From Polytrichum commune (lineage: Eukaryota > Streptophyta > Polytrichopsida > Polytrichales > Polytrichaceae): a stretch of DNA of 64,000 nt. Made by a program: the position numbers and the translations under genes. Positions within the stretch are counted from its first letter, which is position 1. Each line of letters opens with the position of its first letter. This document shows positions 4,111-44,400 of this stretch, piece after piece. The stretch spans positions 19,220,001 to 19,284,000 of the forward strand of contig OX485804.1 in the NCBI GenBank assembly GCA_950295325.1, written 5' to 3'. Below the pieces are notes generated by a model. It was not told where the DNA came from. It did not search any database and worked only from the letters and a program-made list of their open reading frames with translations.

Positions 4111-4439
4111 AAATATATACATATGAAAGAAATTACATATGCAAACTTAAATAATATACAAAAATATTTATGAAAGTGAGAGTATACATAATGAAAACCA
4201 CATATAGAATAGAATCTGAAATTTCAATATGGATGGCTGTTAACGGTCACCCTTGTTGGAGGAAAAAAAATGAAGGAAATGAGTGTATACATGAAGAAAG
4301 ATACATATATAGAAAATAATATAAAATTTTAATAAGGGTGGAAATGAATGTATACATGACAAAAAATACATATATAGAAAAGAATATGAAATTTTAATAA
4401 GGGTGAAAATGAGTGGATATATGAAAAAATAAACTTATA

Positions 4440-13339: not shown

Positions 13340-13920
13340 TCTTCCAAATGGGTAGCCGTTAATGGCCACCATTTCTATGATGCCAACTTTTGTGTTCTAG
13401 TTTAGGCTGGCTGTCAACGGCCACCCTTTGTATGATGCTAACTTCTATGTTCTAGTTTAGGGCAGTCGTTAACGGCCACTCCTTCTTGGGTTTCAGACTT
13501 CATTTAATAATATAATTTCTTTGAAATAAAATCACATATATACATATATTTCTTATGTCCGTCCCATCTAAAAGTGTGGCCGTTAACGGCCACCCTTGGT
13601 TGCATCTCATATTTATTGGTATATGTGTTTTTCCTTTCATGTATACACTCATTTCCGTCATTTTTTGTCTTTTAACAAGGGTAGCCGTTAACGGCCACCC
13701 TTATTGAAATTTCAGATTCTTTTCTATATGTGTTTCCTTCTTCATGTATACATTCATTTCTTTATTTTTATTTTCTTCAACAAGGGTGGCTCTTAACGGC
13801 CACCCTTATTCAAATTTCATATTATTTTCTATATGTGTTTATTTCTTCATGTATACACTCATTTCCTTAATGTTTTATCCTCCAACAAGGATGGCCGTTA
13901 ACGGCCACCCCTATTGAAAT
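13340..13920. repeat. Cluster of GGCCGTTAACGGCC palindromes, older MULE
   Basis: Seven palindromes or diverged forms are spaced about 50-115 bases apart, near 13349, 13406, 13460, 13575, 13679, 13785 and 13887. Most keep GTTAACGGCCACC on the right arm even where the left arm has drifted. The spacers resemble those at 4250-4500 and parts of the 210-bp array in the younger copy. Confidence 0.85.
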
Positions 13921-24900: not shown

Positions 24901-25562
24901 GGGCACTAGCGTACTAGATGGTCTTATAATCACCATTGATACATTATTTTTCACAAATGCATCCCCAACTTGATCATGCCATTGATGAAGAACATTTTCT
25001 GAAAAATGCTCTAATACCTAAAAAACATGAGCACACAAGGAATGGGAATCACCTAAATTTCTTCTTGCTTCAAGATAGATACTTCTCGCCCTCCAACTTG
25101 TAAGTGCATGATTTGAAAGTCCAAGGCATATTATAATCTTCTCTCATGCTTGGAGGGAACACTATATTCGTTAATCGGAGACTTTTGAAAGTCTCAAAAT
25201 TAAATATGCCCATAGTTTGGGATGCCAATATTGTGGGCATATAGAATATTGGGAACATCAAGAACATGATGATTTATAAATTCGCATGCGTAGAATATTA
25301 TCATTACTAAAAATAGAAAGTCTCAATTACAATGAAAACGTGTAGTCCATGTAAAAAATAACAATGGACTTTTAAAAACAAATTGTTTTTGTCATTTTAG
25401 AGTTTAGGGTGCCCATCCCAAAAGTAAGGGTCTTATAAAGTTGGATGACACATCCCAAACATATGCCACAATGGAATGTGACAAGTCTACTAAGTCTATT
25501 AAAAACCAAGCTTGCTAAGCTCACATGCCTCTCGCCATTAACTCCCACCTAGTATGTTATGT
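24900..25562. other. Gene-less spacer and 3' flank of the DUF7869-type gene
   Basis: No coding feature is supported. AT-rich, unique-looking sequence leads up to the stop codon of the leftward gene at 25563. Confidence 0.5.
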
Positions 25563-28500
25563 TTACCCATCTCCATTTTCCGCTTCATATCCATTGTCCG
25601 AGTCATTTTCCGCAGCTGCAATACGTGCCAAATTGTCCTTGGCAAAATCTATATGTTTTTGGGGGATGGTCATTGATTCTGTTTTGGAACCTTTGCGCGG
25701 CTTCCAAGCACAAAGTATAGTATCCGTGTTTATCCAAACCGGTTTGTACGCTGAGTCCATTGTCCACTTGAAATTGTTTTTGGTGTCCCAACCTAAATAA
25801 GTGCGAAGCACGTTCTGGTCTTTAGTGCTTGGACGGCAATATTCCACCTCAATTTGACGAAAGTTGGGGCTAGTTCGAACAAAATTGGGTGAAGACAATG
25901 CTTTCACCAACCAAATTGGTTTGGGATGCTCCTCATCCCCAACTCGTACGAGCACCATATAACCTTCGTGGCAATCAACCCCAACACGAAACGACGGTGC
26001 CGGTCGATTGCGGGCAGGGCCAACGTAATGTTCATCCATTGCGAACTCTTCACGAACGTCTCCATTGCTAAAAAACATGGTGTCGGACTCGACAACCGTC
26101 AAACGACTTTGTGGCCAAAACCCTTGTGTCAAAGTCGTACGGGTGTCGCCATCAACTGTCACTAGTGCCGAGCGAATGCGATCCCAATATAAAATCAATG
26201 GTTCATGAGTATCTCTAACACGTCTAGTGATGTCCTCCTCACACAACTCCTTCCAATATTTAATGAATCCGGATATGCCTTTGATGATCTCCGGTCCATT
26301 CCTCATGGGGTCGGGTTTACAAGGCTTTGGATCCCCATCCGGGAGCAAACATTTCCCATCATTGTCTTGACGCCATACTAGTATACCATCATCCGGGCCC
26401 CAATTAGGAGATGTGCACAAAAGCTTGAATTGCATGGCCGGGAGACCATCATCCCTTATATAGAATCGGAATTGTTGTCTTTTGGTGTGTCCCACCAAAC
26501 GGTCCCCTCCTTTCAACATGTATGGCTTGATGAAGGCCTTAAAATCTGGTACTTCCTCGATCATGTGCGGAATCACCGGCATATGGTCCAAATCCATATA
26601 CGATTTCATAAGAAGTGGTATGGTTGGAAAATCTTCCTCATGCAACTTCATGCTCCACCATCCGAAGGACGCATCAATGTCGTCATGTGTGTGTCCCACC
26701 ATCAAGAAAGACACAAACACCTCCTTGAAGATACCTTTTGCCACAAGCAAAGACCAAAAACAAAATACGTATCGACATTTGTTGTCCTTTGCGCAATTAT
26801 CAAGTTGAACGTGGAGAGTTGGAGGCAAAGGTTTTGCACAAATAGGCTCTCCGGATGCTTCCGGCAATGACGACATACAAACCTCCTTACCCGCAAGCAC
26901 TGCCTCATAAAGGGGTGTCGTTCCACACCCATCAAACAATGCACGTGAAGACTGTATCGGCGGTTTCTCTAGATCGCGCAAGAGTTTTGCAAATGAACCC
27001 ACCGTGTGGTTAGCATCGCCAGGGTAAAAATCCAAACCATAATGGGCATATTTTACGTCCCCATGGCCGTGGGCAATCATACCTATAAAAAACAAACGAT
27101 GGGTTAATCTCCAAAAAAAATGAAGAGACCACTAAAGTAGAACATTTGGAAAAACCACCCAATAAAATAGGATTTAGGGTGAATATAGGTTTGTTATGCC
27201 ATACAAACTTGTTACAGATACGGGTAACTTGAAAAAACCATTCGTGGCCTTTATTTTGCGAGCATAACAAGGGCATACGGTCTTCGAGTGGTCCATTTTA
27301 TCATGGATAATTGTTAGAACCTCTGTAGGCCTCATTATGGATAGAGCACGGTTCTTGTAGTAATCTTGACGGTGAGCCTCTTGGTTGTTGACATGTTCAA
27401 TATATTTTGCCTGATGCCTGGTATGAGACTCAGTACCTATGGGGTGGGCATCTCGAAGACCTTTGTATTTTTCACACGTCGTGCACCTTGCGAATTTGTC
27501 ACCAGGTCTCTTCAAAATATATTCAGCAAATTGTTGGTTTTTAATGACACTCAACTTGGACAAAGAAATGGGTCCACAACCCACTATGCGACCCACTTCG
27601 TTGATATCCGTTAATATGTTCTTCCATTTTGTGCCCGTGGGCAACACCATTTGAACAACTTTCTCCCCTGTCGACAATGTCCTCGTCTTGTGGGGCATTG
27701 CATCGGCCAATGGCACTATGATCGTGGAGAGTGTGGCGGAGGCTTGGAGTGTAGACTCCCTAGGTTTCTTTGTGCCCGCATTGCCATGAAATCGAGAGTG
27801 ACGACCCAATGATGAATACTTTCTAAACCTATAAAAGTCAGCCTTGGAGACGGCATGAATGGTATACCATGCGGTACAACATACTTCCACATTCTCGAGG
27901 GTCACCACCTTATGGCCATGCACATCAAGGTGCAAATTTCTATGGACCTCGAGTTTCTTTGCTGATCTCATACGAAAATCCGCAAGCCACATCTCCTGAC
28001 GCAAAGACTTAATTTTTTCGCGGGGGAAAAATTGGCAACATTTTTTTGCACAACAGTCCTTGGCGGACACGAGACGGATAGAATCGTCTCCTATTATGCG
28101 ATCCCGTCGACGCTCTTTATCATCAGGAGGCGTGCGGCTAGAATCATATCTACGGAGGCCTTTGCGAGGACGAGTGTTGGAAACCAAGGTTGATTGAATT
28201 TGCTCATGCCGTCGCCTATGATCCCACAAGCTTACTTCTTCATGGAGAACCCGACGAAGGGACCATCGGCGCAATGAAAACCTCCAAGTCACAGGGACCT
28301 CAAGCGGAAGCAAAGAATTCAAGATGCACACCCCAACATCATGGAGACCAAGGGGATTGGCATCAACACATTCACGGGGATCGGAGTTTCTACATATGCC
28401 ATTTGCCACCGGGACACCTAGATCATTAAGTAGAACCACATCAAGGCCCACCCATTTCTCCCTACCATATCCTGCATACAAAGGAATGTCATCGTCGTCC

Positions 28501-28680
28501 ACACCGAAATGTAGAGAACTGTCGTGCACTTGAAAAGAATCATGAGAGGATGTACGCAATGACACACCCTCCACTTTGTGTTGTCAAAACTACCCGCGGA
28601 TGAGGATGAAATTTCACATTCACGAACGGAGGACGACATGTCTGTTGACAACTCCAGAGAACTACCATCCACATGCATCG
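25563..28680 (-). CDS. DUF7869-type RNase H-like protein, two exons
   Basis: The minus-strand model is exon 1 from about 28574 (or an ATG near 28680) to 27209, intron 27208-27083 (GTTTGT...TATAG, phase 1), exon 2 27082-25563. The splice joins KLPVSVT to MIAHGHGD. Conserved features in order are a cysteine cluster (CCAKKCC, about 28050-28030), DKMDHSKT near the end of exon 1, LHVQLDNCAKDN near 26800 and VGHTHDDIDASF near 26690. LDN...N and HTHxDID are hallmarks of DUF7869, a transposon-related, presumably RNase H/DDE-fold domain of unknown function. Exon 2 is a clean 500-codon frame, so the gene may be active. The N-terminus is unclear: a frame open from ATG near 28680 (MAMHVDGSS) shifts to the main frame around 28572, implying another intron or a frameshift. 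Palindrome repeats begin about 110 bases upstream. Confidence 0.72.
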
Positions 28681-28791
28681 CCATCCCACCTACAAAAACC
28701 AAAGGCACCAGGAGACCCAAACGTAAACTAAAGAATGATAGCCAACATGGACGACATTCAACGCAGTATGTCAAATCAGTCAAGTTCTAAA

Positions 28792-30088
28792 TACCAACGT
28801 CCGTTCGTATACGACTGCAATAGTGAATGTGCCTATGTGTGGAAGTCAATAACTTAGAAAGCCTTTCAAAGTGCTATCATATTGATCGCTGATGGAATTT
28901 ACGAAAGTGCGTTCGTTAATTACAGACCATCGACTTGCATGAGCAGAACGTGCAAGTTTTTTATACGAACGTACGTTCGTATAGCATAGGATGAATGAGT
29001 TTGGGTATAAAGGTTTATAAACGAGGAGTTTTTTCTGGAAACCAGTACAGAACTCGCATGTTGTATTAACGACCAAAATTTGTAAACCACAACTATCCCG
29101 AATTTCGAAGAGTATATCGGGACAAAACAAATAGCATGTTTACGAACGCACGTTCGTAAAACCACAGAAATCACTATCTGCAGGTGTACACCAGGAAATC
29201 ATAGATGGCGTACTTACGAACGCACGTTCGTAAATGAACAACCATTATATTTATAATTGCACATACATAAAAGCGTAGATGCCACATTTACGAACGCACG
29301 TTTGTAAATGAACCACCATTCGTATTGCAAATGATTGATATATATGTGTCACAACGTTGACTCTGGTATATTTTGGTAGTTACGAACGCACGTTCGTAAA
29401 CCCACAACATTGCGTCCGATCCAACTGTGCTACTGATGGGACCTCATACTTACGAACGCGCGTTCGTAAAACCATAGCAACCCCCATCTGAATGTATAAA
29501 CTAGGAAATCATAGATGACGTACTTACGAACGCACGTTCGTAAATGAACAACCATTATATTTATAATTGCACATACATAAAAACGTAGATGTCACATTTA
29601 CGAACGCACGTTCGTAAATGAACCACCATTCGCATTGTAAATGATTGATATACATGTGTCACAACGTCGACTCTGGTATACTTTGGTAGTTACGAACGCA
29701 CGTTCGTAAACCCACAACATTGCGTCTGATCCAACTGTGCTACTGATGGGACCTCATACTTACGAACGCACGTTCGTAAAACCACAGCAACCCCCATCTG
29801 AATGTATACACTAGGAAATCATAGATGGCGTACTTACGAACGCACGTTCGTAAATGAACAACCATTATATTTATAATTGTACATACATAAAAGTGTAGAT
29901 GCCACATTTACGAACGCACGTTCGTAAATGAACCACCATTCGCATTGCAAATGATTGATATACATATGTTACAACGTCGACTCAGGTATACTTTGGTAGT
30001 TACGAACGCACGTTCGTAAACCCACAACATTCCGTCCGATCCAACTGTGCTAGTGATGGGACCTCATACTTACGAACGCGCGTTCGTA
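28792..30088. repeat. 310-bp higher-order array of ACGAACGNNCGTTCGT palindromes
   Basis: Sixteen palindromes are visible. Two are diverged (28792, 28898) and one is isolated (28964); then 29141, 29215, 29289, 29381, 29451, 29525, 29599, 29691, 29761, 29835, 29909, 30001 and 30071. From 29141 the spacing is exactly 74, 74, 92, 70 and repeats three times, a 310-bp period. Arms are nearly invariant while the centre dinucleotide is CA, CG or TA. Spacers between palindromes are also conserved within the 310-bp unit. One copy (29289) has a single arm change. It lies in the 5' flank of the leftward DUF7869-type gene. Confidence 0.95.
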
Positions 30089-30420
30089 AGTATCCGGTAT
30101 TTGCGGCGGTATATGCGGGATATGCTATGTCCTGTACCTGTGAGGAATACGGTTGGCGAACAGGAGGGTGGCTTGAGCGCGCTCCGACGACTCTCTAGAG
30201 CGCACACCTCCCGTCAGCCGCAGAAAAGAGCTCTCCCGTGGGGGGAAAAACTTTAAGTACCTCCCCCCGGTGGTTCAAAATCTCTTGGATGCTCTTTAAA
30301 AAGCGGATTCCCGCCCCCTACCTAGCCCTACCAATATGCCATTCCCGCCATGACCAATTATATAAATAGCATTTTGTATGCAACATGTATTGCATGCACG
30401 CACATTATATTGGAAAAAAA
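30089..30420. promoter_or_regulatory. GC-richer stretch with CCAAT/TATA-like boxes
   Basis: Just beyond the last palindrome the base composition rises, with inverted runs GTGGGGGGAAAAA and ACCTCCCCCC near 30240-30275. A CCAATTATATAAATA string near 30353 resembles a CAAT plus TATA pair on the plus strand. No gene clearly starts after it, so a promoter role is weak inference. Confidence 0.25.
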
Positions 30421-30599
30421 TGTAAATCGGTCGCACACCTTAGATGTAACCAAGGTCTGAACCACCAAATCTATATATATATATATATATATATACATAT
30501 ATATGTTTCATGATATTTAAATATTATGAATTTTGACATAGAAGATTAAATGATTTGCAACCAAGGTGTGAAGTCCAAGTTAATTAACAATTCGTATCT

Positions 30600-30900
30600 A
30601 ATACAATAATGGTATATTTGGTAATTGGAGTCATTTAGTTGATTTTGAGACTATTTAAGAACGCACTTTAAATTTCAAATATGGACTTGTAATTACAAAC
30701 TAAAACTTTCATACGTATAGTTTCCAAATCGGATACACCTTATATTAGACATAAAGGCATTGAAGGGAACAAAATTATGAAACATAGTTACATGAAAATA
30801 TTTGCACATGAAATGAGAAATAGACCCCAAAGGAAGGGAACATACCGAGAATTAATGGAACTTGAATCAATTCAATGGAAATACCATCCATAACTCTTCT
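30600..30900 (-). repeat. Interspersed repeat shared with 41510-41830
   Basis: Read on the minus strand this matches 41510-41830 over about 300 bases, with landmarks such as TTCTCATTTCATRYG, CAATATTTTCATGTA, AGTTTTAGTTYGTAATTAC and TTAAATAGTCTCAAAATCA. It is non-coding and its nature is unknown. Confidence 0.6.
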
Positions 30901-31319
30901 TAACCTTGATATATAAAAGAAACTAAATATAGAAACTAAATTTATATCACTCAATAAGGTGGGAGTGGGACTCATGGACCCATGAACAGAAAATCATTGA
31001 CGCATGAATTAAGGGCCTAAGACATGCAAGTTATAATAATATTAAGTATGGATTGTGTGAACAAATTGTATAATAACTATTAAGTTATTATTTCATCAAA
31101 ACTCTTAAGTTTCAAGTTTTATTAATCACATAAACCAAATTTTTGTCTCAATTCAATTAATTTAGAATCTCCAAATGACAATCGGCATGATTCTCAATTA
31201 TTACGATTGATATGAATCGAATAAAGCAATTTCCAATCCATCGAACATCGGTAGATCATTTTGACATGCCCATAGATCACAACATGGCCACATACAAGAC
31301 TACCATGTAAGATACAAAG

Positions 31320-31390
31320 ATGCAGGGATGTAGAGTTTAGGGTTGGTGATAGTGTTTAGGGTTTAGGGTTTAGGGTTTAGGGTTTAGTGT
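31320..31390. repeat. Interstitial telomere-like tract
   Basis: Four or more consecutive GGGTTTA units lie near 31356-31385, preceded by degenerate units. TTTAGGG is the usual plant telomere repeat, so this is an interstitial tract, possibly from repair or an inserted element. Confidence 0.75.
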
Positions 31391-31769
31391 ATTCGACCAC
31401 GTGGCTGCAATGCACAAGTTCAATCTAAAATGTCCTCAAATGAATGACGATAAACAAAATTCAAGCATGTTTACTAAGTTATTGAAGTTAATGTGATAGA
31501 CGCATCCATTACATATAGGGTTTACAAATCATGAATTTAATGTGAACTCATTACTTATACATTCAAGTCGTTATAAGTGTTACATATTGTAGAATGTTTC
31601 AGTCAATTAATACTTAAGTTGAATTATATATACTATCGTTTATGCTTTTTTTGTATTAAACCTTAGGGTCCTAGTTTTAAAAACAATTAGTGTTAATTCT
31701 ATAAATGTTCATGGTTTAGGGTTTTAGTTGTACAAGTGTTACTTGTACATTTTGTATAGTTGTTCTTTT

Positions 31770-32970
31770 TTAAACCCCCCCACCGAAGGCTGATTTTTCA
31801 CAAAGGTTTTGCCCGTCCACGTCCAAAAACCTTGAATTGAAAGGCAAAAAAAATTGCAACCCGTCCCAAAACCGGTAATTATTTCTAAACCAACCCGTCC
31901 ATGGAAAGGTTAAAGAAAAAACAACCCGTCCCAAAACAGGGAATTTCTAAACCAACCCGTCCATGAAAAGGTTAAAGAGAAAAACCAATTAATAAAGATA
32001 AACCGAAAGATGTTGGCATGTGATTGGTTGCACTTGGAAACAATAGGATCTTGCTTCAATGCCATCAATACTATGTCTTTTTGCTAATTTCAGCTGCCAC
32101 CACCAGCATTCCCTCCACGACATTGCCCCCCCCCCATTTTTTCCATTTGAGTTTTGAAGCTCTTCCCATCGAGCAGGTATTGAAGCTCTTCCCATTAACA
32201 AATATAAGTTAGTTAGGTATCTCTTACACACATTCTTTCTATATCTTTTGGGCATGAGGGATTATGAGGTTTTGGGTGAAGGATTTGATTTATTTTTTTG
32301 GAACAAGAACTGGTAGGCTTCGCGGTCGAGGAGATTCAACCTACCTTTTTTGTCATGCACTGCAATATGTGAGAGGGGTTTTCCTAAACAAAACCTAATC
32401 AAAATCATCTACGTACTAGTTTGAAGTTAGAAACTTTAGAAGCTTTGATGCGCATTTCATGTGCAAATATTCCAGTTGAAAACATAAATTGGAATGCAGT
32501 GATGCTTGTTTGGAGAAACATGAAGGATAGGAGAATTCATCCACTTCTTTGAAGGGTAAGTAGGTATTTATTTTAATTTTTTTGATCATATTCATATATA
32601 ATGATTCTTATTCAATTGCTAAGTGTACCTTCAATTATAATCTTTGACATTATGTTAAAAAGGTTCTAAATTTTGTGGTTGATGAATTAATGTATGCAGG
32701 TGAATCATGCACTTCAATTTGATATTTTGATTGGGTATTAGTGCTTTGATTGCATTATGCTTATATTCACATGTCATATATGACATAATGATATTTATAC
32801 CATTTATGTTTTTGAGACAAAAATTATAAAAACATTATTTTTAGAACCCATCCAAAATAAATTTGAAATGTCCAAAAACCAGTTCATTTTCTAAGAACCC
32901 GTCCACTGGAAATGATTTTTTTTAATGAACATGTCCCTAGACATGTTAGGGACCTTGTGAAAAACCACCA
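31770..32970. repeat. Tandem AACCCGTCC repeats; possible TIR element
   Basis: Two to three units of about 64 bases, each with AACCCGTCCCAAAAC and ACCAACCCGTCCATG, lie at 31850-31985, and a related unit at 32835-32910. TTTTTCACAAAGG at about 31793 and the inverted form CCTTGTGAAAAA near 32951-32962 could be terminal inverted repeats of a 1.2-kb element, but the match is short. No coding capacity is seen. Confidence 0.35.
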
Positions 32971-32989
32971 CTGCCCCTACCCCCCTTCA

Positions 32990-33165
32990 TCTACCCATAT
33001 CTACCCATCCCATCCCATCCCCACCCATGTCCCCTCCCCCCATCCCATCCCACCTATCCCCCTCACACCCTCCCATCCCCACCCATCTCCCCTCCCCATC
33101 CCCACCCATCCCCCTCTCCTCATCCCTTCCCATCTCCCATGCTCATCCCTTCCCATCCCATCCAT
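32990..33165. repeat. CCCATCC-type simple repeat
   Basis: This is a pyrimidine-rich array of CCCATCC, CCCACCC and CCCATCTCC units. It generates open frames on both strands (proline-rich or glycine-rich) that I regard as artefacts. Confidence 0.85.
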
Positions 33166-33299
33166 GTTAAGCGCGGTCCAGTGGAGGGATGCCACATGGC
33201 AGCCGCAGGGAAACCCTAGCGGTGCCGGCTACCTCCCCGCGCCCCTCCTCCTCATTCTCATTCCCAGCAGAGAGAGGAGGAGCGAAGTAGAGCGGAGCG

Positions 33300-34613
33300 A
33301 AGCTCTGGCGAAATTTAGAATGCTTTAGTTTATGTGTTTTTTTCGCATCTTAGGAGTCGCATATTTCTCTTCAGTTTGGAACGAATCTGATTAGAGAGCT
33401 TCAGAGTTGTGCGCATCAGGAGTAGAGAGCTTGTGAGCTTGTGCAGGTTGCAAGCTTTCTTTTTTTTGTTGTTTTTGTGAGCTTCATAGTTGCAAGTTCG
33501 GAGAAGACAGCTTGCTAGGTGACAGCTTGAAGTTTGTAGGCTTCAGAGTTGCAAGCTGTGTTTTAGTGGTTGTTTTTGTGAGCTTGATAGTTGCAAGCTT
33601 GGAAGAAGGAAGCTTGATGGTTGCAAGATTGCAATTTCAGTGCACATGAGTAGTTGCTAGGGTTTAGGTCTCATTCAATTGCATACAAGGAGTGTTCCAA
33701 AATTTTCAGCAAGAAGAAACAAGGTCAAGCACATTGCAATGTGAGTGAAGTAATCCTTCTAAACTCGCTTCCCAAACATTCTGAATTTCTGCATTGTTGA
33801 ATTCCATGGGTTTTGTTTGTATTGTCAACTTCTTTAGCATGAGATCTGGCATGTTGTGTATGCTTTATGAATTCTGCACTGATTTGGTTTGAGTATCCTG
33901 GTTCTAATCCAGTGTTGCAGGCACGAACGCAAGCATTCTTCAGAGCTGAAGTGTATACGTATACGTATACATATACATACACGTACATGTACGGACAGAA
34001 CGCTCTCAAGAAGTTCACATTTACGAACGAGCGTTCGTAAATGTGAACACAACCTGCAAACCAGAGCTGTTGTGACCCCTCCCAGTCCATATGTTTACGA
34101 ACGCACGTTCGTAAACACGCAACCCATCCTCTTTTCATGTGTTTACGAACGCGCGTTCGTAAACACCCACCCCTAAACCCCTAAACCCCTAAATTTTACG
34201 AACGCACGTTCGTAAACAAGGAATACATAATAGTCTGAGTATTTACGAACGCACGTTCGTAAGCACATAATCCCTGCCCATACCTCATTATACGAACGAG
34301 CGTTCGTAAATGACTGCCTTGTGCCCGTCAAAAGATTTACGAACGTGCGTTCGTAAACACATGTTGAACAAATTGAAGATATAAATCAGTATAAGTCACA
34401 ACAGAACAAAATAATATAAACACATTGGTATTTAAAACACGCAAACATCTAAAGCCAAAAGAACAGCCTCTCAAACAGAACACATTTACGAACGTACGTT
34501 CGTAAATATCTCAACAACTATTGTTCAAAATATTTGAAAATTGTAGAACTCTGTCTGCTAAATACGAACGCTCGCTCGTAAATACGATCCTGACTACCTA
34601 TGTTGTTTTGCAG
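33300..34613 (+). promoter_or_regulatory. Leader/5' UTR and first introns of the ParB-like gene, with palindromes
   Basis: A G-rich start-like region near 33270-33340 is followed by repeated TTGCAAGCTT phrases (33430-33630) and a consensus donor (AAT, then GTGAGTG) near 33740. Candidate acceptors are TGTTGCAG near 33920 and TTGTTTTGCAG at 34603-34613, the latter directly before the proposed ATG. Nine palindromes occupy the last 600 bases (34022, 34096, 34144, 34197, 34244, 34291, 34338, 34487 and a one-mismatch copy at 34563). Three CCCCTAAA units sit between two of them at about 34170-34193. Transcript structure is inferred, not shown. Confidence 0.5.
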
Positions 34614-37382
34614 ATGGCCATCCCTAACAGAAGCGCGATAGAGATGTTCGGACAGAAGTTGGAGAGTGTCCCAGAGTCAGTGACAGACGACAATAGGAAT
34701 GACAATTATGTCCCACAGGAGGACTTCATGAAAGAGTGGACGGCGCTTCCAGAGATGTTAGAGGATGGAACATTCGTCCTCCGCTTCGTCTACCAGCTCA
34801 ATACCAACGACGATGAACCAGAGCAGTGGGTGCAGATGGCAACATGGGAGATAGATTCCGTGGAGGCACAGGGCAATTACGTAATCCTCAACATGAAGTA
34901 CAACAATGACCACGTCAACGTGTTGCTGGACTACTTGGCATACACCTTCTCCCACAACTACGCGCAGATGCATGTTAAAGAGGAGGGAAAGCGTTTCGAC
35001 CTGCCAAAACTCTTCACAAGATATAGCCTAAGTCAACATTGGACAGCAAGGAAATTGACCGCTTTGTGCTTGAACATCTCCAAGACCAACAATGCTGTGT
35101 TGGAGGCCAACAAGAAGAAGAAGAGTCCCAAGAAACCAACGCAATCCGGTGCAGGCGGATCCAGAAGTGCTCCGCGGCCTGTTCCCACTGCGAGCAGATT
35201 GACCGAAGGTACGAGTAGACATTCCACTCCTTCGAAGAGAACGAGGGACGACATGGAGAAGTCTGGCGTAACTGAGGGCGCAGAGGTCAGTTCCCCGCCA
35301 GTCATGCCGGCTCCTTTGCAGAAAGGAGAGGTACCGGACGGTACGAAGGCCACGCGCATCCTTCGAGATTTTAACAGTTACTCGAAGGACTGCTGGCCAA
35401 TGGGTCAATTTTTCACATTCAACGTCGACTGCTTCAAATGTGAAAAATCTCCAAACAAGTGGGTAGTGAGGTCACGGGAGACCGGGGGTGTGAAGTGGCA
35501 GTTGAATAACCTCTACAACAACGTCAAGTGGGACAGGCAAACAGTTTGTGTGATGCCAAAGGGCTTCACTACCCATCCCACGGAGAGGGATTGGCCACGA
35601 ATCCTTAACGGAGATTTCTGGATCATCGACGGACAGCACAGCTTGGAGGCTGCTAAGATCGTTCTGAATGACGACGCCTTCCAGCACGAGCTGAAGGGCG
35701 ACTTGCGCTATTGGAAGTCGTTTCTGGTGTGGTCAGACGACTGGGAGAAGCTCCGCAAAATATCAACGTATTTGAATAGCGGAAACAAGACGAAAGTTTT
35801 TGAGGCGTCCTGGGCTGCGAATATTGTTGCTGCAAGAGACGTCTGGGTGGCACACGGTAGCCCCCCTAAGGAGAGGGAGAACGCCAAGAAACCTTCTCCA
35901 CAGTGGAATGTAAGTTTACGAACGTGCGTTCGTAAACATCATCTCAATATTTCCTTTCTTGTTTGCATTTTACGAACGTGCGTTCGTAAACATCAGCTCA
36001 ATATTTCCTTTCTTGTTTGCATTTTACGAATGACTGACATCCATTTTAATATGCAGGCGTTCTGCGACGCTATGGTGGACAAATTCTCCTCCATCGACAT
36101 GAAGTCTACTTCAACCAAGTCGGTGCTGGAGTTGAAAGGTGAGCTCAGGCTCATATGCTGTACAACAGACACCTGGGATTTATGGACCCAGTTTTTTGAC
36201 TCCCACACGTCGGGAGATTTAACCAACCCCGACATGGAAGAGAAGTACAATGCCGTTGAGAACTTCGAGTGCCCCCCGCTGCTCAGGGAGTTCTTCAGAC
36301 CCCTCCAAGGGCTGACAGAATCGGAGTTGAAGCGATGCGCCGTGCACGCTCTAATGAAAACAGAGGGAAGGAAACTTCCCTATTCAAAAATATTTTTGAA
36401 GAGACCCAAGCACAAGCCCGGGACGTACTCCATCAAGGAGTGGTGCGAGCATCGAAAGCTGAAGACAGCAGCAATGAGGGAATTGAGCGCACTGGCACCT
36501 CAATACCAAATCTTCGACGTCGATGGCGACGTGAAGTGGAATCACTGGAAGGTGTTCAAGCAAGCCTTTAATATTAGAGGCCCCTCAATGCGAAGTCTGG
36601 TCAGGGAGCACGCCGCATCTTTGAAACTGAAGGGCAACAAACGGACTAAGAAATCCGAGACGGATGCCCAGGAGGTGGGCCTTTATAAAAAAAAATTGGA
36701 GAGGAAGAGGACAGCAACATTCGAAGGAGTGGCGAGGTTTTGCACTGTCACCACCGGCCTGGAGAGGACCACATTCTCTAAGTGGGACGGTAGCTTCACC
36801 AGGGCGGATGTTAGGGAGGACCGACGGGGATGCCCATTTGCCCTGATCGATTTCAGGAGCATCCCGGGTGCGTCGAGCCGCGGGACAAAGGACCTGCCAT
36901 TCTACAACCCATTCATGGCCAAGTTCATGGAGTACAAATCTCCTACCATGAGGGAGCCCCACGTTTGGCTATGGATTGTCGAGCACGAGAGGCTGTCGGA
37001 AATTCTGGAACTGTACGAGAAGACCATCAAGTTCGAGTACAGTATTTACCACAGCACCTATGTTCCCGCCAAGACAAAAGGGATTGTTGTAATCAACGAG
37101 GCCAGGGGAAACAAGCAGGTGGGAGCAGTCAGCCTCGTCTTCCTGACCTTCAACCAACTAAGGGATGGGAGGGTCCCTATCAAGGCTAGCAATGTATTCA
37201 AGAAGATATACAACATCCCGCACCCACCTCCCAAAGATCTATTCCAGGAGACGTTATTTACTGTCATTCCCGCAGTTGAACTCAGGCTGGAATTCTACAT
37301 ATCCATTCTCCAGAGTTTGACAACCCATGGAGAGACGGTGTACAGCGTATACGGGGGCAGCAAGTTTTTGTACGCGGCCATG
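34614..37382 (+). CDS. ParB/sulfiredoxin-like domain protein, main exons
   Basis: I place the start at ATG 34614 (MAIPNRSAIEMF), directly after a good acceptor; the open frame continues upstream only through a palindrome and a TTG codon. Exon 1 is 34614-35909, exon 2 36057-37382, both phase 0. The intron (147 bp, GTAAGT...ATGCAG) is itself open in frame. About residue 167 is a basic KKKKSPKKP stretch that may be a nuclear signal. WIIDGQHSLEAAK at about residues 336-348 resembles the DGQHR/G-x-HR signature of ParB/sulfiredoxin-fold domains. The C-terminal third has conserved-looking motifs (GCPFALIDFRSIPG, FYNPFMAKF) that I do not recognise. Codon use is even and stops are absent over 2.7 kb, so the gene looks intact. 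The function is unknown; a DNA-associated role is inference from the fold resemblance and the surrounding palindromes. Confidence 0.7.
35910..36056 (+). repeat. Intron 1 built from two palindrome units
   Basis: The 147-bp intron consists of a donor GTAAGT, then two near-identical units of about 54 bases, each a palindrome with a TG centre (35917 and 35971) plus ATCTCAATATTTCCTTTCTT or its twin, then a degenerate half-palindrome (TTTTACGAATG near 36022). It ends in the acceptor ATGCAG. The intron is thus mostly repeat DNA, and the repeat could have created it. Confidence 0.85.
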
Positions 37383-37652
37383 GTAAGCCCACTCTCATTT
37401 GTTTACGAACGTTCGTTCGTAATGTTCATTGGTCTATTAGTCTTAGTAATACTAGTTATCATACTAAGCTTGACATTTACGAACGCACGTTCGTAAAGAC
37501 CAAGGTCTGCACCTGAAATAATAGGTTAGACATGAAGTCATTGGGATTGCTGACTTTTACGAACGCACGTTCGTATTTGCTGACATGTTCTAGTTTATGC
37601 TACAGATGCTTGGCTTGGTCGTCAATTCCTATCTGGACGCAACCGACGAAAG
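37383..37652 (+). repeat. Intron 2 with three palindromes
   Basis: The donor GTAAGC follows ATG at 37380-37382. Palindromes lie at 37404 (TT centre), 37478 and 37558 (CA centres). The best acceptor by sequence is CTACAG ending at 37605, but it leads to a stop at 37684-37686. An acceptor ending at 37652 (CGAAAG) keeps the frame into the long downstream ORF. Which is used cannot be decided from sequence. Confidence 0.6.
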
Positions 37653-39047
37653 GAGTACAAGCGTCACAGGGCAAAGGCGTCAATGATGGACCTGGGTGAC
37701 ATGAGTGGCCCCAGGACAGACTTCAGCTTGCCATCGGAGGGGGGAACGCCGGTAATTGACACGGATGATGACGAGCCCACCCCCTCAGCTAACCTTGAAG
37801 CGATCATCCAGTCGTTGGATGTCACTCCTCTGCTGTTACTGCCGCCATCAAGACTGCCTTTAGACCCCCATGGGACTCCTGGGGGCTACACCGGGTCGTC
37901 TGCTGGGGCAACCCAAGATGTCGCCCCCGCAAGAGTATCTGGACTGGATCCCTTCGGCACACCTGGGGGATGCTCGACGTCGGGGTCTCCCAGGACCTCC
38001 TCGGTGCCAAAGATGGAGACACTCGACCTCCTCGACCAACGGTCGCGTCCATCCTTGGACCTCTTCAGGAACACGAGGAGGAGGATGAAAAAGACGCCCT
38101 ACGTGGAGCTGCCGCCGGGGGCAATTATCGATGTGTCCGACGAGGACGAAGGGGACATGGACATCATGTCCGAGCTGGGGGTGGAGTACGACAGGAACAA
38201 GCGGGTGAAGGAGGAATCCCTCACAGTTGCCGAGCTCAACTCCAAGCTGGAGCAGAAGATGAAGGAGGAAATGGCGGCAGCGCAGGAGGAGAGCGCCAGA
38301 CAAATGGCGAGGCTGGAGAAAGAGCTCAGGGATTCCGCCGCAAAGACAGACGCCATCTTCGAGATACTGAGAAGCATGCAGAGCATGTCTGCTCCGGTGC
38401 AACAGCCCTACCCCTATCCCCCTGTAGGACACCCCTCACAGTCCTCTTCGCCAGGAATGTACCAAGCAGGGCCATCCCACCCCCGAGCGCATCCAACACC
38501 GGCTGGAAGTCCCTTTCCACCTGAACTGGCAACAACGGCAGCGCCTTCGCACGATGTGGTCTCTGCGGCGATAAGAGAGGACGAAGATTTACGAACGCGC
38601 GTTCGTGAATCTTCAGGTGCGGCAGTCCTCACCCCTCCCCCATCAAGGGTAGGACTGCCCTCAACTGCAGACAGGGTAGTTGCTAGGAGGGGCGATGACA
38701 CTGCGGAACACACTGACATGCTCATTGTGGAGGACACGCAGGGGAGCCCCAATGATGCGGCATGTATCGCGTGCATGGATGTGGAGAGCCCTGAGCATTG
38801 TCAGCATCCTTCTGCGCGGATGGAGGATGTCCGCATGGAGACTCTCGACCTGGGCGGGGACGAAGACGAAGCGGATCTCATTGAACAGACCCAGGCGTCC
38901 CAGGCTGGCCATGCACCAGAGGCCATGGAGGCAGAGGCAGCTGCTCCGATGGAGGTTACGAACGCGCGTTCGTTAATCGAAGAGGAGGGAACTACTCGGT
39001 CCAGCGCCGCTGCCCCTCCCCCCGATGACGAGGTAACTCATCTCTGA
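37653..39047 (+). CDS. Proline-rich coiled-coil C-terminal exon or separate protein
   Basis: An open frame runs from at least 37584 to a TGA at 39045, with ATG at 37683. If joined at 37653 it extends the ParB-like protein in frame to roughly 1340 residues; otherwise it is a separate 454-residue protein. It has acidic, proline-rich low complexity (TPGG phrases). A predicted coiled coil at about 38220-38390 (LNSKLEQKMKEEMAAAQEES, MARLEKELRD) is followed by a Pro/Tyr-rich stretch (PYPYPPVGHP). Palindromes at 38590 and 38957 lie inside the reading frame and encode LRTRVRES and VTNARSL without breaking it. I recognise no enzyme domain; a scaffold or disordered tail is likely. Confidence 0.55.
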   Translation, partial: EYKRHRAKASMMDLGDMSGPRTDFSLPSEGGTPVIDTDDDEPTPSANLEAIIQSLDVTPLLLLPPSRLPLDPHGTPGGYTGSSAGATQDVAPARVSGLDPFGTPGGCSTSGSPRTSSVPKMETLDLLDQRSRPSLDLFRNTRRRMKKTPYVELPPGAIIDVSDEDEGDMDIMSELGVEYDRNKRVKEESLTVAELNSKLEQKMKEEMAAAQEESARQMARLEKELRDSAAKTDAIFEILRSMQSMSAPVQQPYPYPPVGHPSQSSSPGMYQAGPSHPRAHPTPAGSPFPPELATTAAPSHDVVSAAIREDEDLRTRVRESSGAAVLTPPPSRVGLPSTADRVVARRGDDTAEHTDMLIVEDTQGSPNDAACIACMDVESPEHCQHPSARMEDVRMETLDLGGDEDEADLIEQTQASQAGHAPEAMEAEAAAPMEVTNARSLIEEEGTTRSSAAAPPPDDEVTHL

Positions 39048-39062
39048 GAATACCTCTCATTT

Positions 39063-39513
39063 TACGAACGCGCGTTCGTAACCAACTAACCCCCTCGTTT
39101 GTTATTGGCGCTTCATGTCCGGCGGCATCAGGAGGCCCGCGCGAGCCTTTTCTGCGTGACACCCTAGGCCTGCCAGTTTTGTAGGACACGGAAATTGTGA
39201 TAGATTATCACGTGAGACATTTGTAAATATTCAACGGATTTAATATATGAGCAGTTTATCTCTGCATCGGATTTTCCCAATTTTGTGCATCGTCTATTCA
39301 ATCCCTGTGTTGTGAATGGTCTGGCGTCTCTATAAACTCTTGCATGCCCCTTCCTCAATCACGAACGCTCGTTCGTAAATGTGTGCGACCCAGTGTCCAC
39401 CTCCTTCACGAACGAGCGTTCGTAGATTATGCCTGTAATCTCACGAACGAACGAACGTTCGTAAATGACGCGCACCGCCACCCGCAGCCCTCATTCACAA
39501 ACGCGCGTTCGGA
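39063..39513. repeat. Palindrome cluster between the ParB-like and phosphatase genes
   Basis: Copies occur at 39063 (CG centre), 39361 (CT), 39408 (AG), 39443 (an extended form with a duplicated CGAA) and a diverged copy at 39497. The last lies about 130 bases upstream of the first coding block of the phosphatase-family gene, so the cluster occupies its probable promoter. Confidence 0.88.
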
Positions 39514-39628
39514 AGTGTGCCTTTGAGCGCATTCGCATTGCACTCTAAACCCTCGCTCCCTCGTCATTCCCTTAATGCAATTTTAATTTATTTATTGGAC
39601 CATATCATTGAACTAGTTAAATCGTTAA

Positions 39629-40402
39629 TCACAGGACCCCACGAAGTTAAATCGCAACCCGTCGGCGAGTGGGCCTCAGACCTGTCACAAGCCCTTCCTG
39701 GTTCTTGACCTTAACGGGGTGTTGTGTCACACCCAACACATCCCCAAGGTCCCCACCCGTTCCTTCCGCCAACCCGACGAGATGGACTACGACGGCCAGC
39801 TCGACACTCTGATAAACCGCAAGGCCGTCCGCGCCCGTCCAGGCGTGCGGGACTTCCTTCGAGAGGTGCTCGACCTCTTTCACGTGGTCGTCTGGAGCTC
39901 CATGATCATGGAGAACACGGAGGCCATCGTCGACTTCCTCTTTCGTGGCCTCCCGAGACCATGCCTCGTCCTCGGCCAAGATGCGTGCGACGATCTAGTC
40001 GACGAGAAGGGGTTTCCCGTGCCCAAGTTCGGCGGTCGAGGAGGGGGACAACAGTTCCTCAAGGTCCTCCAGTCCAGGTTGTGGCAAGGCATCCCCATTC
40101 TCGAGGGGGTCCCCCACGGACACTGGCCTACGCCGGAGAACACCCTCCTCGTCGACGACAGCCCAACGAAGAGCGTCCTCAATCCCCCGGGCACCGTCGT
40201 CTTCCCCGACACTTGGACCAGCGATAGGAAAGATACCTTTTTGGTCGATAAGCTAGCACCTTATCTTAGAATGCTAGTGCTCCACCCCGGGAGCATCCCC
40301 GATTTTGTTAGGTCCAACCCCATCGGCAACGCCGCGCTTAGTCCCCGCGACAATGTATATAAGAGCATCGTGCGGCTTGCAAAAATCAATAAATTGATTT
40401 GA
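39629..40402 (+). CDS. HAD-superfamily FCP1/SCP1-like (NLI-interacting factor) protein, 5' end unresolved
   Basis: The frame is open from 39629 to the TGA at 40400. HKPFLVLDLNGVLCHTQ (39686-39736) is motif I of the FCP1/SCP1 family, but with DLN in place of the usual DxD. LFHVVVWSSMIMENTEAIVD matches motif II, and ENTLLVDDSPTKSVLNPP (near 40138-40190) matches the motif III/IV DD region. A plant subgroup with LDLNG or LDVNG is known. Loss of the second aspartate, the general acid/base, predicts weak or no phosphatase activity. The first ATG lies after motif I, so translation must begin in an upstream exon; an acceptor-like ATCACAG ends at 39634. A palindrome cluster lies upstream. The decayed duplicate is at 21085-21800. 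Confidence 0.82.
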   Translation, partial: SQDPTKLNRNPSASGPQTCHKPFLVLDLNGVLCHTQHIPKVPTRSFRQPDEMDYDGQLDTLINRKAVRARPGVRDFLREVLDLFHVVVWSSMIMENTEAIVDFLFRGLPRPCLVLGQDACDDLVDEKGFPVPKFGGRGGGQQFLKVLQSRLWQGIPILEGVPHGHWPTPENTLLVDDSPTKSVLNPPGTVVFPDTWTSDRKDTFLVDKLAPYLRMLVLHPGSIPDFVRSNPIGNAALSPRDNVYKSIVRLAKINKLI

Positions 40403-40598
40403 ATTGCCACCGTGTATTTGTTTGTTTCCATGTGGATCACATTTCTAATTCCTTTTTTGGATGCCTTTTGGTCGTGTTTGTTGTTGTTGTTGTTGTTGTT
40501 CACAGTTTGCCCCGCCTTGCGACGCCCCCCTCCTCGATGGCCCTTTCATTCCCCGCTCGGCCCCTCCCTCCCCCTCGCGCGACGCGTCGAACTTCCGA

Positions 40599-41434
40599 AT
40601 GCCATCCCTCTACCAATTCTCGGCGGTGGACGCGGCGTCGGCCGTGGATTACTCCCGTGACGTCGGGATCGAAGACGGCGTCGTCAATAGTCCTCCCCCC
40701 AAACTCCACTTGCGCACGCGCGCACCCTCGCCCTCTCCCCTCTCCAAAGAGAAACGAACTCTCGTTCGTTTGGCTACGACGTCAAGGGAGGACGGTGTCC
40801 CTCGTCGCGGTCCGAGCCGGCGTCTCCGCATGGAAGCCCCCCCGCATGAAGCCCTCCCCTCCGCCTCCGCTCCTCCCCCTGCCAACTCCTCCCACGTCGC
40901 TCGTCCCCCTTGCATTGATCCCCCCGTCAACGGCCCGAAAGCCAAGGTGCAATTTCTTTTACTCCCCTACCACATTTCCCGCCGTTGGTTTACTTGTCTC
41001 CCATGTTTACATTCCCTTGTGGCCACGATGTTTACGAACATACATCCCAAACTGCCGTCGTTTCCCCCACTCCGTTCAAGCCTTTGATTTAATCCCACTA
41101 AATTTGCTTTCTTTCGCAGGTGGCTACTTGCTCGATGGGTGCCCATCCCTCCTCGACGTCGTCCTTGGATAGGCTGGCACCCAAGGCCACTTCCTCCGAT
41201 TCCGATCGTTGTTTGGCCGTCCGGCGAACCACGAGACAATCTATCTCCCAAACGCAATCGTATTCCACTCACCATACCACTTCGTACAATTCGGGAGCGC
41301 GTCCGGATAATATTATATGGAAGAACGGCACATATTCCGGGTCCGTCAACAATAATGGTTATAGCCGCGGGCCGGAGATTTTTAGGGCCATGGAGGCTGC
41401 CAAAAAAAAAGAGATGGCCGCGACAAAAAAATAG
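40599..41434 (+). CDS. Two-exon gene of unknown function downstream of the phosphatase gene
   Basis: The model is exon 1 40599-40946 (ATG, MPSLYQFSAVDAASAVDYSR), intron 40947-41119 (GTGCAATT...TTTCGCAG, phase 0), exon 2 41120-41434, about 220 residues. The upstream leader likely follows a TTG-repeat intron that ends at CACAG near 40504. The protein is serine/proline-rich, with a C-terminus (YSRGPEIFRAMEAAKKKEM) that is well preserved in the decayed duplicate at 24100-24185, which argues for real coding. I recognise no domain. A palindrome-like AAACGAACTCTCGTTCGTTT lies in exon 1 near 40752. It could also be a downstream part of a longer transcript with the phosphatase gene. Confidence 0.6.
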
Positions 41435-44400
41435 TGGGATGGACTCCCTAAACTAAAAATAGGTTCAAGGCTATTAGATATTATCTATGACTTTAGATTT
41501 TATTTCGTGTTCTCCAAGACATTGATGGTTTTTCCATTATCCTTGTATTTCATTCCAATTGAATTAATTCAATTTCTATTCATCATCCGTATCTTGCCTT
41601 CCATTCATGACCATTTCTCATTTCATACGCCAATATTTTCATGTATGCTTCACATTTTCGTTCAATTCCATGCTTTTATGTCTTATTATTGTTTCCAACC
41701 CTATACATTTCCGAGTTTTAGTTCGTAATTACTAGTTCTTATTTGAAATGTGCGTCCTTAAATAGTCTCAAAATCATCTAAAAGTCTCTAATTAACGAAT
41801 ATAGTGTTAGGGTCTTGCAAAAAAGAAAAGAAAAATCAACATTGGGCAATCCGACATGAATTTGAGACTGTTGGCCCTTCCATGCTCAAGGGTCTTGCAA
41901 ATCCCAGTATTAGAATGTTATTATGAACGTGGACATACCATAACAATGGAGAAATGACCTTGTCAATGGATTTGGCGTTCAGGGAATCTGGAGCAAGTTT
42001 CGCCAGTTTAAGATTTCAGATGCACACCAATGCTAAGGCAATGATGAGCACTAGTGGTTATCACTAACATACCTTCAACTATAGTGGAGCAACGTAGTAT
42101 TCAAAGATGAAAAGGCAGTAGTTCATGAATTCTTAGAGCAATCTGGTTGAATGCATGATGCCACAAGAAGGCCTGAGGTGTTTGTATACTATTTGAGAAA
42201 TATGTGGTGGTCTATTCCAACAATTACAAATTCATCTTCAGAAAACACTGCAATATTCTTCTATTGTACTGCAAATATAGGAAGGAATAATATTCTAAAA
42301 CAAATAGTTGTGCCATTCGGCGGACTTTGTCTCAAATGTTGGCAGCAATTATTTGGAAATTTAAGTTGATTTGGAAGTTGAGCGTGGAGCATATTACACT
42401 CCTTGCTTAGATGGCGTAGGTGAAAGGATTTGTTTTGTGTTGGTTTGATTTGCAAATTGGTAAGGTGAGGATGATATTCCTATTTTGGCTTTTGAAAATA
42501 GGCAACGTGATGAAAAGGAAACCTGCGAATGCCAAATTATGGAGCACAAATCGTGGCAAGGAATTGCGTATGCAAAAACATGATCTGGGGTTGAGGGTCG
42601 TAGCTCTTGTGGCTTATTATTGTGATGGGGTGGTTCAAGACAGATTTGAGTTCATAAAACTTCGAGAGTCCCACACAAACCTTCAGCCTTCCATCACAGA
42701 GGTTGGATTCTCATCATTGCAAACCCTTGCAAGACACCATGATGACAACATATATGCTAAAATATAGCTATTGGATATCTTTTTCTTTAAAACTTGACTT
42801 ACATTTCAAAGCTTCTTCATAGCCTCTTTCCACTTTTAGTCCACAAACATAAGGTGGATCATCTATTGACAAAGTCAAATGTTCACCAACCTTCTTATTC
42901 ACTAGAATGATAGCTCCTCAATAAGAGTTGCATCGCTAAGACAAAGAACATCATGCCTCTGACACCACTAAAAGTTCTTCTCCAAGGCCATTGTTGGAGA
43001 CAATGATTTTCATTTCAAGTTTTGAAGAGAGCAACATTGGCTATAACGATTGGAGTGAAGAAGCCACATATAAATGATCCAAAGGGAGGCAATCTCATCC
43101 AATTTTAATGATTTTTAGGGATATTTCTAGCTATGTCAACCACAAAAACCATGGAATAATTTGTAGAATACTTTATTTTATTTTTTTAGAATATTGTAAA
43201 TCACCAACACATAGCTGGCTTAAAAATCATTGGTTTGACACTTTAGCTGGGATGAAAACCACTGCCGATTCCCCATCTTCGTCCCTTCACCCTTTGCATA
43301 AAGCGAATTGAAACGGAACTCAAATTCAATGGTAGGGAAAAAGCCTCAATCAGTGTTGACGCCGATTAAGCCATTTGGGAAGTGCTTGTCATCCATCCTC
43401 CCGGCTAAGAATCCTTGTCCTCTAACAACAAATGCAGGCACCGTTGGCCTCAGTCTACCGGTTCCATCCCCAAACCAGCTTGAACATGGGAAGTGGAGTC
43501 CACCTCCACTTCCTTTAGGGTTAAGGCTGAATGCTCAACATTACAAGCCACACAAGTGGACATCATGTTCAACCTGGGAAACAACTTTAGATCCTCAAGG
43601 TGCAATGTTTCAGTCACGGCCCACGGAATTTACCCATACAAAATCCAAAATTAAAATGGTTCATCAGCTCTTAGACTCCACTTCGGAACTACTGCTAATA
43701 AGCTTACAGGTAGAACTGCATGATGTTATCAAACCTGCCTAGATTGCATTGAATGTTCAGGGACCTACCAGGACAGACCTCATTCATGATCCATAAAGGC
43801 ACCTCAGGAATTCACAAACATACATTGGCGAATTTACAGCTAGTCTTAAACAAACACCGGATGTGGCCGATGTAAGTCACCACAAGTACAACAGCTTCTT
43901 ATTACTTGCCAGAAGCAGAACCTTTAGCGTGTCGTGTGCTGATTGGATGTGCTTCTTCTTGGCCTCACAGAGGCTGCCACTTGTATTGAAGTATAAGAAC
44001 TGCGGCCATTTCAACCACTCCCAAATAATGAGGAGGCAATAAAAACTTCTGCTTTACCTGTTAATTAATGGTCCAGCCCCCTTGCAGAGAGACTCAATCC
44101 AAAAGACCTAGGTACTCATCACTCCTGGGCATTGAATCGCACGAAGTGCTCAGGAACCAACCGATCCACTGACAATCCCAACACTAACTTAAGTTAGGTG
44201 CACTCCTCTCGTAAGTTAATTAATCACGGAGCAATTAAATTACTCGATCGGGTTGAAACCTGGCCGCATCGGAATCCGGATGTGCTGAAGTAAGCTAACC
44301 TCATCACTTACAGTGGAGTTAACTTAGTGTGATGTGTTCCCTCTCACCCACTTCTTGAAGCACTTTCGAAAGGACACAACGAAAGGAGTCATGACTCATC

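Follow-up and report, generated by a model that had tools for sequence, protein, structure and literature searches.

Results

A palindromic word confined, within the window, to one transposon

The DNA analyzed here is a stretch of 64,000 nucleotides of Polytrichum commune (assembly GCA_950295325.1, contig OX485804.1, positions 19,220,001–19,284,000 of the forward strand), referred to below as the window and numbered from its first letter. It includes a DNA transposon of 16,651 bp (25158–41808) with a DUF7869 gene, a ParB-like gene and a phosphatase-like open reading frame (ORF), and it is within this element that a short palindrome, the 16-mer ACGAACGNNCGTTCGT with its free centre, is repeated. 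All 32 exact copies present in the window lie inside the element, between 28965 and 39462; outside these limits no exact copy is found in the 64 kb, and none appeared in any of 100 dinucleotide shuffles. The window scan also yielded five copies with one mismatch (28793, 28901, 29290, 34564 and 40754), two with two mismatches and two with three, some of these weaker matches overlapping an exact site. The initial annotation had counted about 40 copies, nearly absent from the rest of the window, which is a fair description.

The arms usually extend beyond the 16-mer, as TTTACGAACG-NN-CGTTCGTAAA; in 30 related loci, the three positions to the left of ACGAACGNNCGTTCGT are occupied by T in 267, 280 and 249 of 287 exact sites. 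The centre dinucleotides of the 32 exact copies in the window are CA (15), CG (6), AG (3), TG (3), TA (2), TT, CT and AA (one each). Every exact copy carries four CpGs in its arms, in agreement with the four or more first noticed. Thirty of the exact sites are noncoding and two are coding. The features of the element are the following:

25154–25157, target site duplication AGGG, left (ATGT on both sides of a second copy, on contig C7)
25158–25186, plus strand, left terminal inverted repeat AACACTATATTCGTTAATCGGAGACTTTT, 27/29 match to the right end
25563–28583, minus strand, DUF7869 gene, ORFs 25563–27131 and 27174–28583 (PF25273, E-value 1.1e-39 on the first ORF)
28793–30089, array of palindromes upstream of the DUF7869 gene, most of it within a 310-bp tandem repeat (29140–30089)
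30600–30882, right-terminal region repeated in inverted form inside the element, with about 79% complementarity to 41552–41816
34023–34579, leader palindromes of the ParB-like gene, eight exact and one with one mismatch
34614–35909, plus strand, ParB-like exon 1, an ORF with splice donor GTAAGT and the motif IIDGQHSLEA
35910–36056, plus strand, putative intron 1, palindromes at 35918 and 35972, exon 2 following in frame
36057–37382, plus strand, exon 2 (alignment-based), ending in a methyltransferase-like GGSKFLYAAM stretch
37383–37605, plus strand, putative intron 2, three palindromes (37405, 37479 and 37559)
37606–39047, plus strand, exon 3, coding palindromes at 38591 and 38958
39064–39512, palindromes in the interval from the ParB-like gene to the phosphatase ORF (39064, 39361, 39408 and 39447; a degenerate one at 39497)
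39629–40402, plus strand, NIF-type (HAD) phosphatase-like ORF (PF03031, E-value 1e-15; motif DLNGVL)
41780–41808, minus strand, right terminal inverted repeat, pairing with the left end
41809–41812, target site duplication AGGG, beside the right end

The borders of the element are sharp when the window is aligned with the copy on contig C7. The terminal inverted repeats are 29 bp long, start with AACACTATATTCG and are identical at 27 of 29 positions, with the 4-bp duplication AGGG on both sides; the C7 copy has ends of the same kind, flanked on both sides by ATGT. Both copies examined show the inverted ends and target duplications of a cut-and-paste DNA transposon, one that recurs across the genome and had not been recognized in the initial annotation. 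The exact sites closest to its ends lie 3,807 and 2,346 bp away; subterminal transposase sites were ruled out, as no exact site falls within 2.3 kb of either end. An exon had been included among the initially annotated places of the palindromes. The pair at 35918 and 35972 turned out to lie in a putative intron (GTAAGT…CAG), and it is the sites at 38591 and 38958, in exon 3, that are coding. These two are translated as LRTRVR and VTNARS, i.e., in different reading frames; hence the unit that is kept is the DNA word and not a peptide.

Genes of the element

The two DUF7869 ORFs probably form a single gene, and its product, with 83 scored matches in its own genome, is probably the transposase. 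In Pfam scans the ORFs of the element matched DUF7869 and NIF only; a MULE transposase, a recombinase or a ParA-like domain was found in none of the ORFs scanned. Exon 3 of the window copy shows a one-base frameshift near the exon start when compared with another copy (L012). NIF copies are free of stops in 140 of 148 cases among the best-scored ones of the genome, and on contig C1 10 of 17 family-1 DUF7869 copies (family 1 being that of the window) have a NIF copy within 20 kb, at the expected place and on the expected strand. The usual HAD active-site motif is DxDx, with a second Asp where Asn stands here. As the motif reads DLNG in the window ORF (39629–40402) and DVNG in that of a second family described below (locus L057, 6645–7310), i.e., DxNG in both, phosphatase activity of the NIF ORFs is uncertain.

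The inverted repetition of the right-terminal region within the element (30600–30882 vs. 41552–41816) gives the impression that two formerly separate halves, one with DUF7869 and one with the ParB-like gene and the phosphatase, have been joined. In four copies the DUF7869 protein is 96–97% identical to that of the window and the adjacent ParB-like protein only 72–74%. A viral origin of the element was ruled out: the ParB-like alignment gave 132 pattern-matching stretches in viral contigs, none of them a relative, and the DUF7869 protein gave no match in such contigs. A search for phage relatives of the ParB-like part gave no match.

Resemblance of the ParB-like protein to ParB was seen by eye, at a (D/N)GQH(S/T)L motif. 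DPPY is the usual catalytic motif of methyltransferases; at the place where it would be expected, again by eye, the protein has a conserved DFRxIPG, and DPPY itself is not seen. A GG.K motif followed by the phase-0 intron 2 is common to both families. Such motifs suggest, on inspection, a ParB-like protein with a methyltransferase-like part.

Genome-wide distribution of the palindrome

The assembly of the genome of origin amounts to 408 Mb and has seven large contigs; LEAFY matches at three loci mark it as that of a land plant or a close relative. In it ACGAACGNNCGTTCGT is present in 5,602 copies, compared with four for the reversed (backwards-read) control. When any spacer of 0–8 bp was allowed, 5,615 matches were obtained (control, 21), of which 5,602 have exactly 2 bp between the arms and 13 another length. 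A satellite or random scatter was ruled out by the shuffles and by the genome count against the reversed control.

The ParB-like protein has at least 53 matches in the genome, and the best 30 of these 53 loci were cut out for inspection. Each of the 30 carries 3–15 exact ACGAACGNNCGTTCGT sites, and any other palindrome of the 7-2-7 form is found at most twice per locus. Of the checks proposed at the outset, the count of the 16-mer with free centre and its association with homologues of the gene at 34614 gave a positive answer. One subfamily lies at C1:639147–643272 (L001–L008); L008 is 75–78% identical to parts of the window between 30070 and 31357, and the palindrome centres in L001 are CC, CA, TC, TG and GG.

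A second family has its own word

Stretches of 3–5 kb upstream of five other DUF7869 genes (L052–L056) were examined, and ACGAACGNNCGTTCGT is absent from all of them. Two, L052 and L054, contain seven and six exact copies of a different palindrome, CACGGGTG-NN-CACCCGTG. This family-2 word, CACGGGTGNNCACCCGTG, has 953 copies genome-wide and none in the control; with any spacer of 0–8 bp the count is 1,005 (control, 1). For L053, L055 and L056, one locus each, the sampled 3–4 kb upstream contain neither word.

The right part of a family-2 element (L057) carries 11 exact family-2 words and no ACGAACGNNCGTTCGT; the two words never occur together in any of the stretches examined. Its gene order is that of family 1: ParB-like gene, acidic third exon and NIF ORF (E-value 1.6e-8). 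The ParB-like proteins of the two families are 22% identical in exon 1 and 21% in exon 2, with tblastn E-values of 6e-8 and 3e-9 when these exons were searched against the L057 locus alone. Family-2 palindromes are found upstream of the gene and ahead of the NIF ORF; within the gene the word is present in intron 2 and exon 3 and, with one CpG-type mismatch, in putative intron 1. Placement of the palindromes thus matches between two syntenic families although the words differ. Separate from the larger clusters listed, groups of two or three family-2 words, with two copies spaced by about 394 bp, lie at C1:2256636, 28021449 and 29501590; they might be short non-autonomous derivatives in which the word is retained. 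A further 16 ParB-like matches in the genome share 24–28% identity with family 2, among them those at C6:38177160, C1:37774595 and C1:61422041.

Linkage of the ParB-like and DUF7869 genes was counted over all matches listed, which are the best-scored ones, with a limit of 20 kb and against two lists of DUF7869 matches, the first being the 83 matches to the window gene and the second another DUF7869 list. A first-list DUF7869 gene accompanies 14 of the 53 family-1 ParB matches listed, in divergent orientation in all 14; with the second list the figure is 9/53, six of them divergent. Family 2 shows the converse, with 47 of 94 listed matches close to a second-list gene, all 47 divergent, and 2/94 close to a first-list gene, neither divergent. 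When the listed DUF7869 matches are taken by length, a ParB-like gene lies within the limit in 34/38 of the 692/677/689-aa class, in 2/49 of the 502/504-aa class (its one sampled stretch, L053, has neither word) and in 11/63 of the others.

Conservation of the sites

Changes were counted in alignments masked for local homology, for a group of 18 copies and a closer group of eight, with the bases outside long open frames as the noncoding comparison set. Among the 18 copies, non-CpG bases of the arms are changed in 1/1,095 alignment cells vs. 324/21,407 for noncoding non-CpG bases, and CpG bases of the arms in 20/1,461 vs. 33/1,044. The eight closer copies give 1/606 vs. 102/11,553 and 15/808 vs. 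26/648, respectively. Changes of the centre amount to 17/366 in the 18 copies and to 2/202 in the eight. An earlier unmasked count, in which truncated copies were misaligned, had given no difference between arms and centre in the 8-copy group.

Between subfamilies with about 74–75% protein identity, the leader outside the palindromes is identical at 418 of 617 positions. Four of the eight leader sites of the window are aligned with a site of the copy from the other subfamily (6 sites), and in the same comparison shared sites number 2/2 in intron 1, 2/3 in intron 2 and 1/2 in exon 3. Among 80 sites with a single mismatch, 45 are CpG transitions; of nine sites with a double mismatch, one is compensatory. 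In the one leader alignment read, none of the sites that the copies do not share looks like a clean insertion into an empty site. Of the origins initially considered for the palindrome, the first, a protein site with two-fold symmetry, is supported by the 2-bp spacer and by the conserved arms.

Other repeated words and methylase genes

A third palindrome, TGGCCGT-NN-ACGGCCA, likewise has a 2-bp centre and is often enclosed by AGGG…CCCT; it lies in tandem repeats at 4234–5695 and 13353–13907 of the window. It gives 18 matches with at most two mismatches, 17 of them at 4.2–13.9 kb, vs. 0.08 by chance. Its host is an inverted-repeat element whose longest arm match is 92% identical and which has a weak SWIM zinc-finger match below the Pfam cut-off. 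The cytosine-5 DNA methylase family also gives 123 scored matches in the genome, spread over all seven large contigs. Most of them cover a short part of a long open frame, and the lengths of these frames recur (1386 and 1366 aa), as would be seen if a land plant had a multicopy element with a gene for a cytosine methyltransferase.

Discussion

Relation to known elements

CACTA/EnSpm elements end at CACTA, generate a 3-bp duplication and have subterminal repeats bound by TnpA. The element described here resembles them by a CACTA within the terminal repeat and by repeated internal sites, and differs from them by its AACACTA ends, by the 4-bp duplication in both copies examined and by sites that lie 2.3–3.8 kb from the ends.

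A 4-bp duplication is also generated by Sola2 (PMC3627910), though AGGG is not AT-rich. In the VANDAL transposons of Arabidopsis, VANC acts through a motif that is dense in noncoding parts and tandem repeats, a related family having another motif, and leads to loss of methylation (PMC5735166; PMC10398659). The palindromes share with that system a short family-specific motif, dense in introns, upstream parts and tandem repeats, and a different word in a related family. VANC21 motifs are 9 bases long and in one orientation (PMC5735166), in contrast to a palindrome of 16–22 bp with a 2-bp centre. Moreover, the element has another type of transposase and an unrelated candidate protein.

Giant algal transposons such as Sola1-1 of Ectocarpus have accessory genes for ParB-like and N4C/N6A methyltransferase proteins, and the algal ParB-methyltransferase proteins have been suggested to bind and modify their own element (PMC12477816). 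Common to them and to the gene studied here are a ParB-like motif, a methyltransferase-like C-terminal stretch, a strand opposite to that of the transposase gene and a giant element; for the algal genes, the part of that report drawn on here gives no cognate DNA site, unlike the present case, in which there is a candidate. The bacterial anti-silencer VirB, of the ParB family, counters H-NS by loading at a recognition site and spreading (PMC10653881). Here the likeness is one of logic, site loading and spreading to undo silencing, and is not based on sequence relation.

A literature search, with preprints and most subscription papers outside its scope, found no paper on DUF7869 and none on a Polytrichum genome; for ParB together with transposons and for giant or moss transposons it retrieved no description of the element or the palindrome, and for the word itself, a weak test, it gave none either. 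The initial annotation would have been refuted by one known satellite or transposon that explains the repeats, and this holds only in part: they do belong to a transposon, for which no description was found in the literature searched.

Proposed function of the palindromes

What calls for an explanation is a transposon with sites of fixed geometry, conserved and placed alike in two syntenic families that use different words. As the two-fold site is fixed, has a 2-bp spacer, is kept in promoters, introns and an exon, and changes its word between syntenic families, we take it for a family-private site of a dimer. The ParB-like protein is the best candidate for the binder because of the ParB/methyltransferase proteins of algal transposons and the precedent of VirB. 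The reading towards which we lean, with confidence a little better than even, is that the palindromes are sites of this self-encoded dimer and keep the giant transposon active through anti-silencing. The ParB-like protein would recognize the fixed arms as a dimer and so be loaded, in elements of its own family alone, onto promoters, introns and intergenic DNA. Once loaded, it would most likely protect the element from silencing, or reverse it (CpG methylation, repressive chromatin), either by ParB-type spreading from dense sites or by marking through the methyltransferase-like part. The transposase and its companion genes would then stay expressed and, each transposon family having its own palindrome, the proteins would act on their own family.

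Several observations weigh against this proposal. On the side of the protein, searches of Pfam, PHROGs and the Protein Data Bank (PDB) gave no ParB match, the ParB/Srx N-terminal domain included, and no convincing methyltransferase profile; the best result, which bears on the helix-turn-helix that follows the N-terminal domain in ParB proteins, is a weak TrfB/KorA match (E-value 0.017, residues 83–151 of the exon 2 query), and single-sequence structure models are too poor for use (predicted local distance difference test, pLDDT, 33 and 36). With two families, co-variation does not tell whether the ParB-like protein or the transposase is the binder. No ParB-like gene was detected in the element that hosts the third array; words of this kind may extend beyond the link to ParB, unless a partner gene went unrecognized there. 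As to the sites, the centre in the 8-copy group is no more variable than the CpG bases of the arms (2/202 vs. 15/808), and the Fisher values of the conservation counts (3e-6 and 0.003; 0.065 and 0.016) are a guide only, related copies being counted as independent. Family 2 is less strict in its spacer (2 bp in 953/1,005 vs. 5,602/5,615), with no centre other than AA, TT or AT among the copies listed. Within about 0.9 Mb of one family-2 ParB copy (C1:33085431, 70% identity) the matches listed include no exact family-2 word, and for three family-1 ParB matches the nearest second-list DUF7869 gene is not divergent.

Alternative explanations

The sites could also be those of an ordinary transcription factor, an element-encoded or host activator driving the promoters of the element with no role in silencing. 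This alternative is unlikely in our judgment, although it would account for the density of sites upstream of three genes and for their dimer-site geometry. It leaves aside that two introns and an exon hold sites in both families, beyond what a promoter needs, and a single host factor would not explain two words in one nucleus.

Decidedly less probable is a use in DNA movement, pairing or segregation, and not in expression, in which the palindromes would be bound by the DUF7869 protein or by a ParB-like clamp. Palindrome arrays next to a ParB-like gene resemble loci of the parS/sopC type, and an exact 2-bp centre resembles the sites of serine recombinases. The distance of the exact sites from the ends of the element, their concentration in gene leaders and introns, and the lack of a recombinase or ParA-like domain among the ORFs scanned argue against it.

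Small hairpins that are mobile or arise by slippage and spread into the element, with no binding function, would explain the high copy number and the tandem arrays, and hairpin spreading was the second origin initially considered. The constancy of the spacer, arms that are kept while flanks diverge, the rarity of compensatory double changes, the leader alignment without a clean insertion and the matching placement of unrelated words in two families make such an origin very improbable. Hairpins acting as RNA on splicing or on small-RNA production are more improbable still, since, despite the many sites in probably transcribed parts (leader and introns), sequence is conserved rather than pairing, and the intergenic arrays and those upstream of the transposase gene need not be transcribed.

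Implications

The proposal of a family-private site for a self-encoded anti-silencer may be extended to a ParB/parS-like loading system in the plant nucleus, in which several giant transposon families would each have a private palindrome akin to parS. A ParB-like protein of the family, derived from a methyltransferase, would load there and spread from it or mark the element, so that every family recognizes itself and escapes silencing. We put this forward as a tentative and rather doubtful generalization. If it holds, the 16 further ParB-like matches predict further palindromes.

The question behind these observations is how transposons evade silencing without waking all other transposons. To our knowledge, the worked-out plant answer to selective anti-silencing is that of VANC and VANDAL. 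The palindromes of P. commune look like a separate answer to the same problem: their sites are very clean and can be counted, one genome holds two words or more, and a word swap would test specificity directly. They also offer the ParB-methyltransferase accessory proteins of algae a candidate kind of DNA site.

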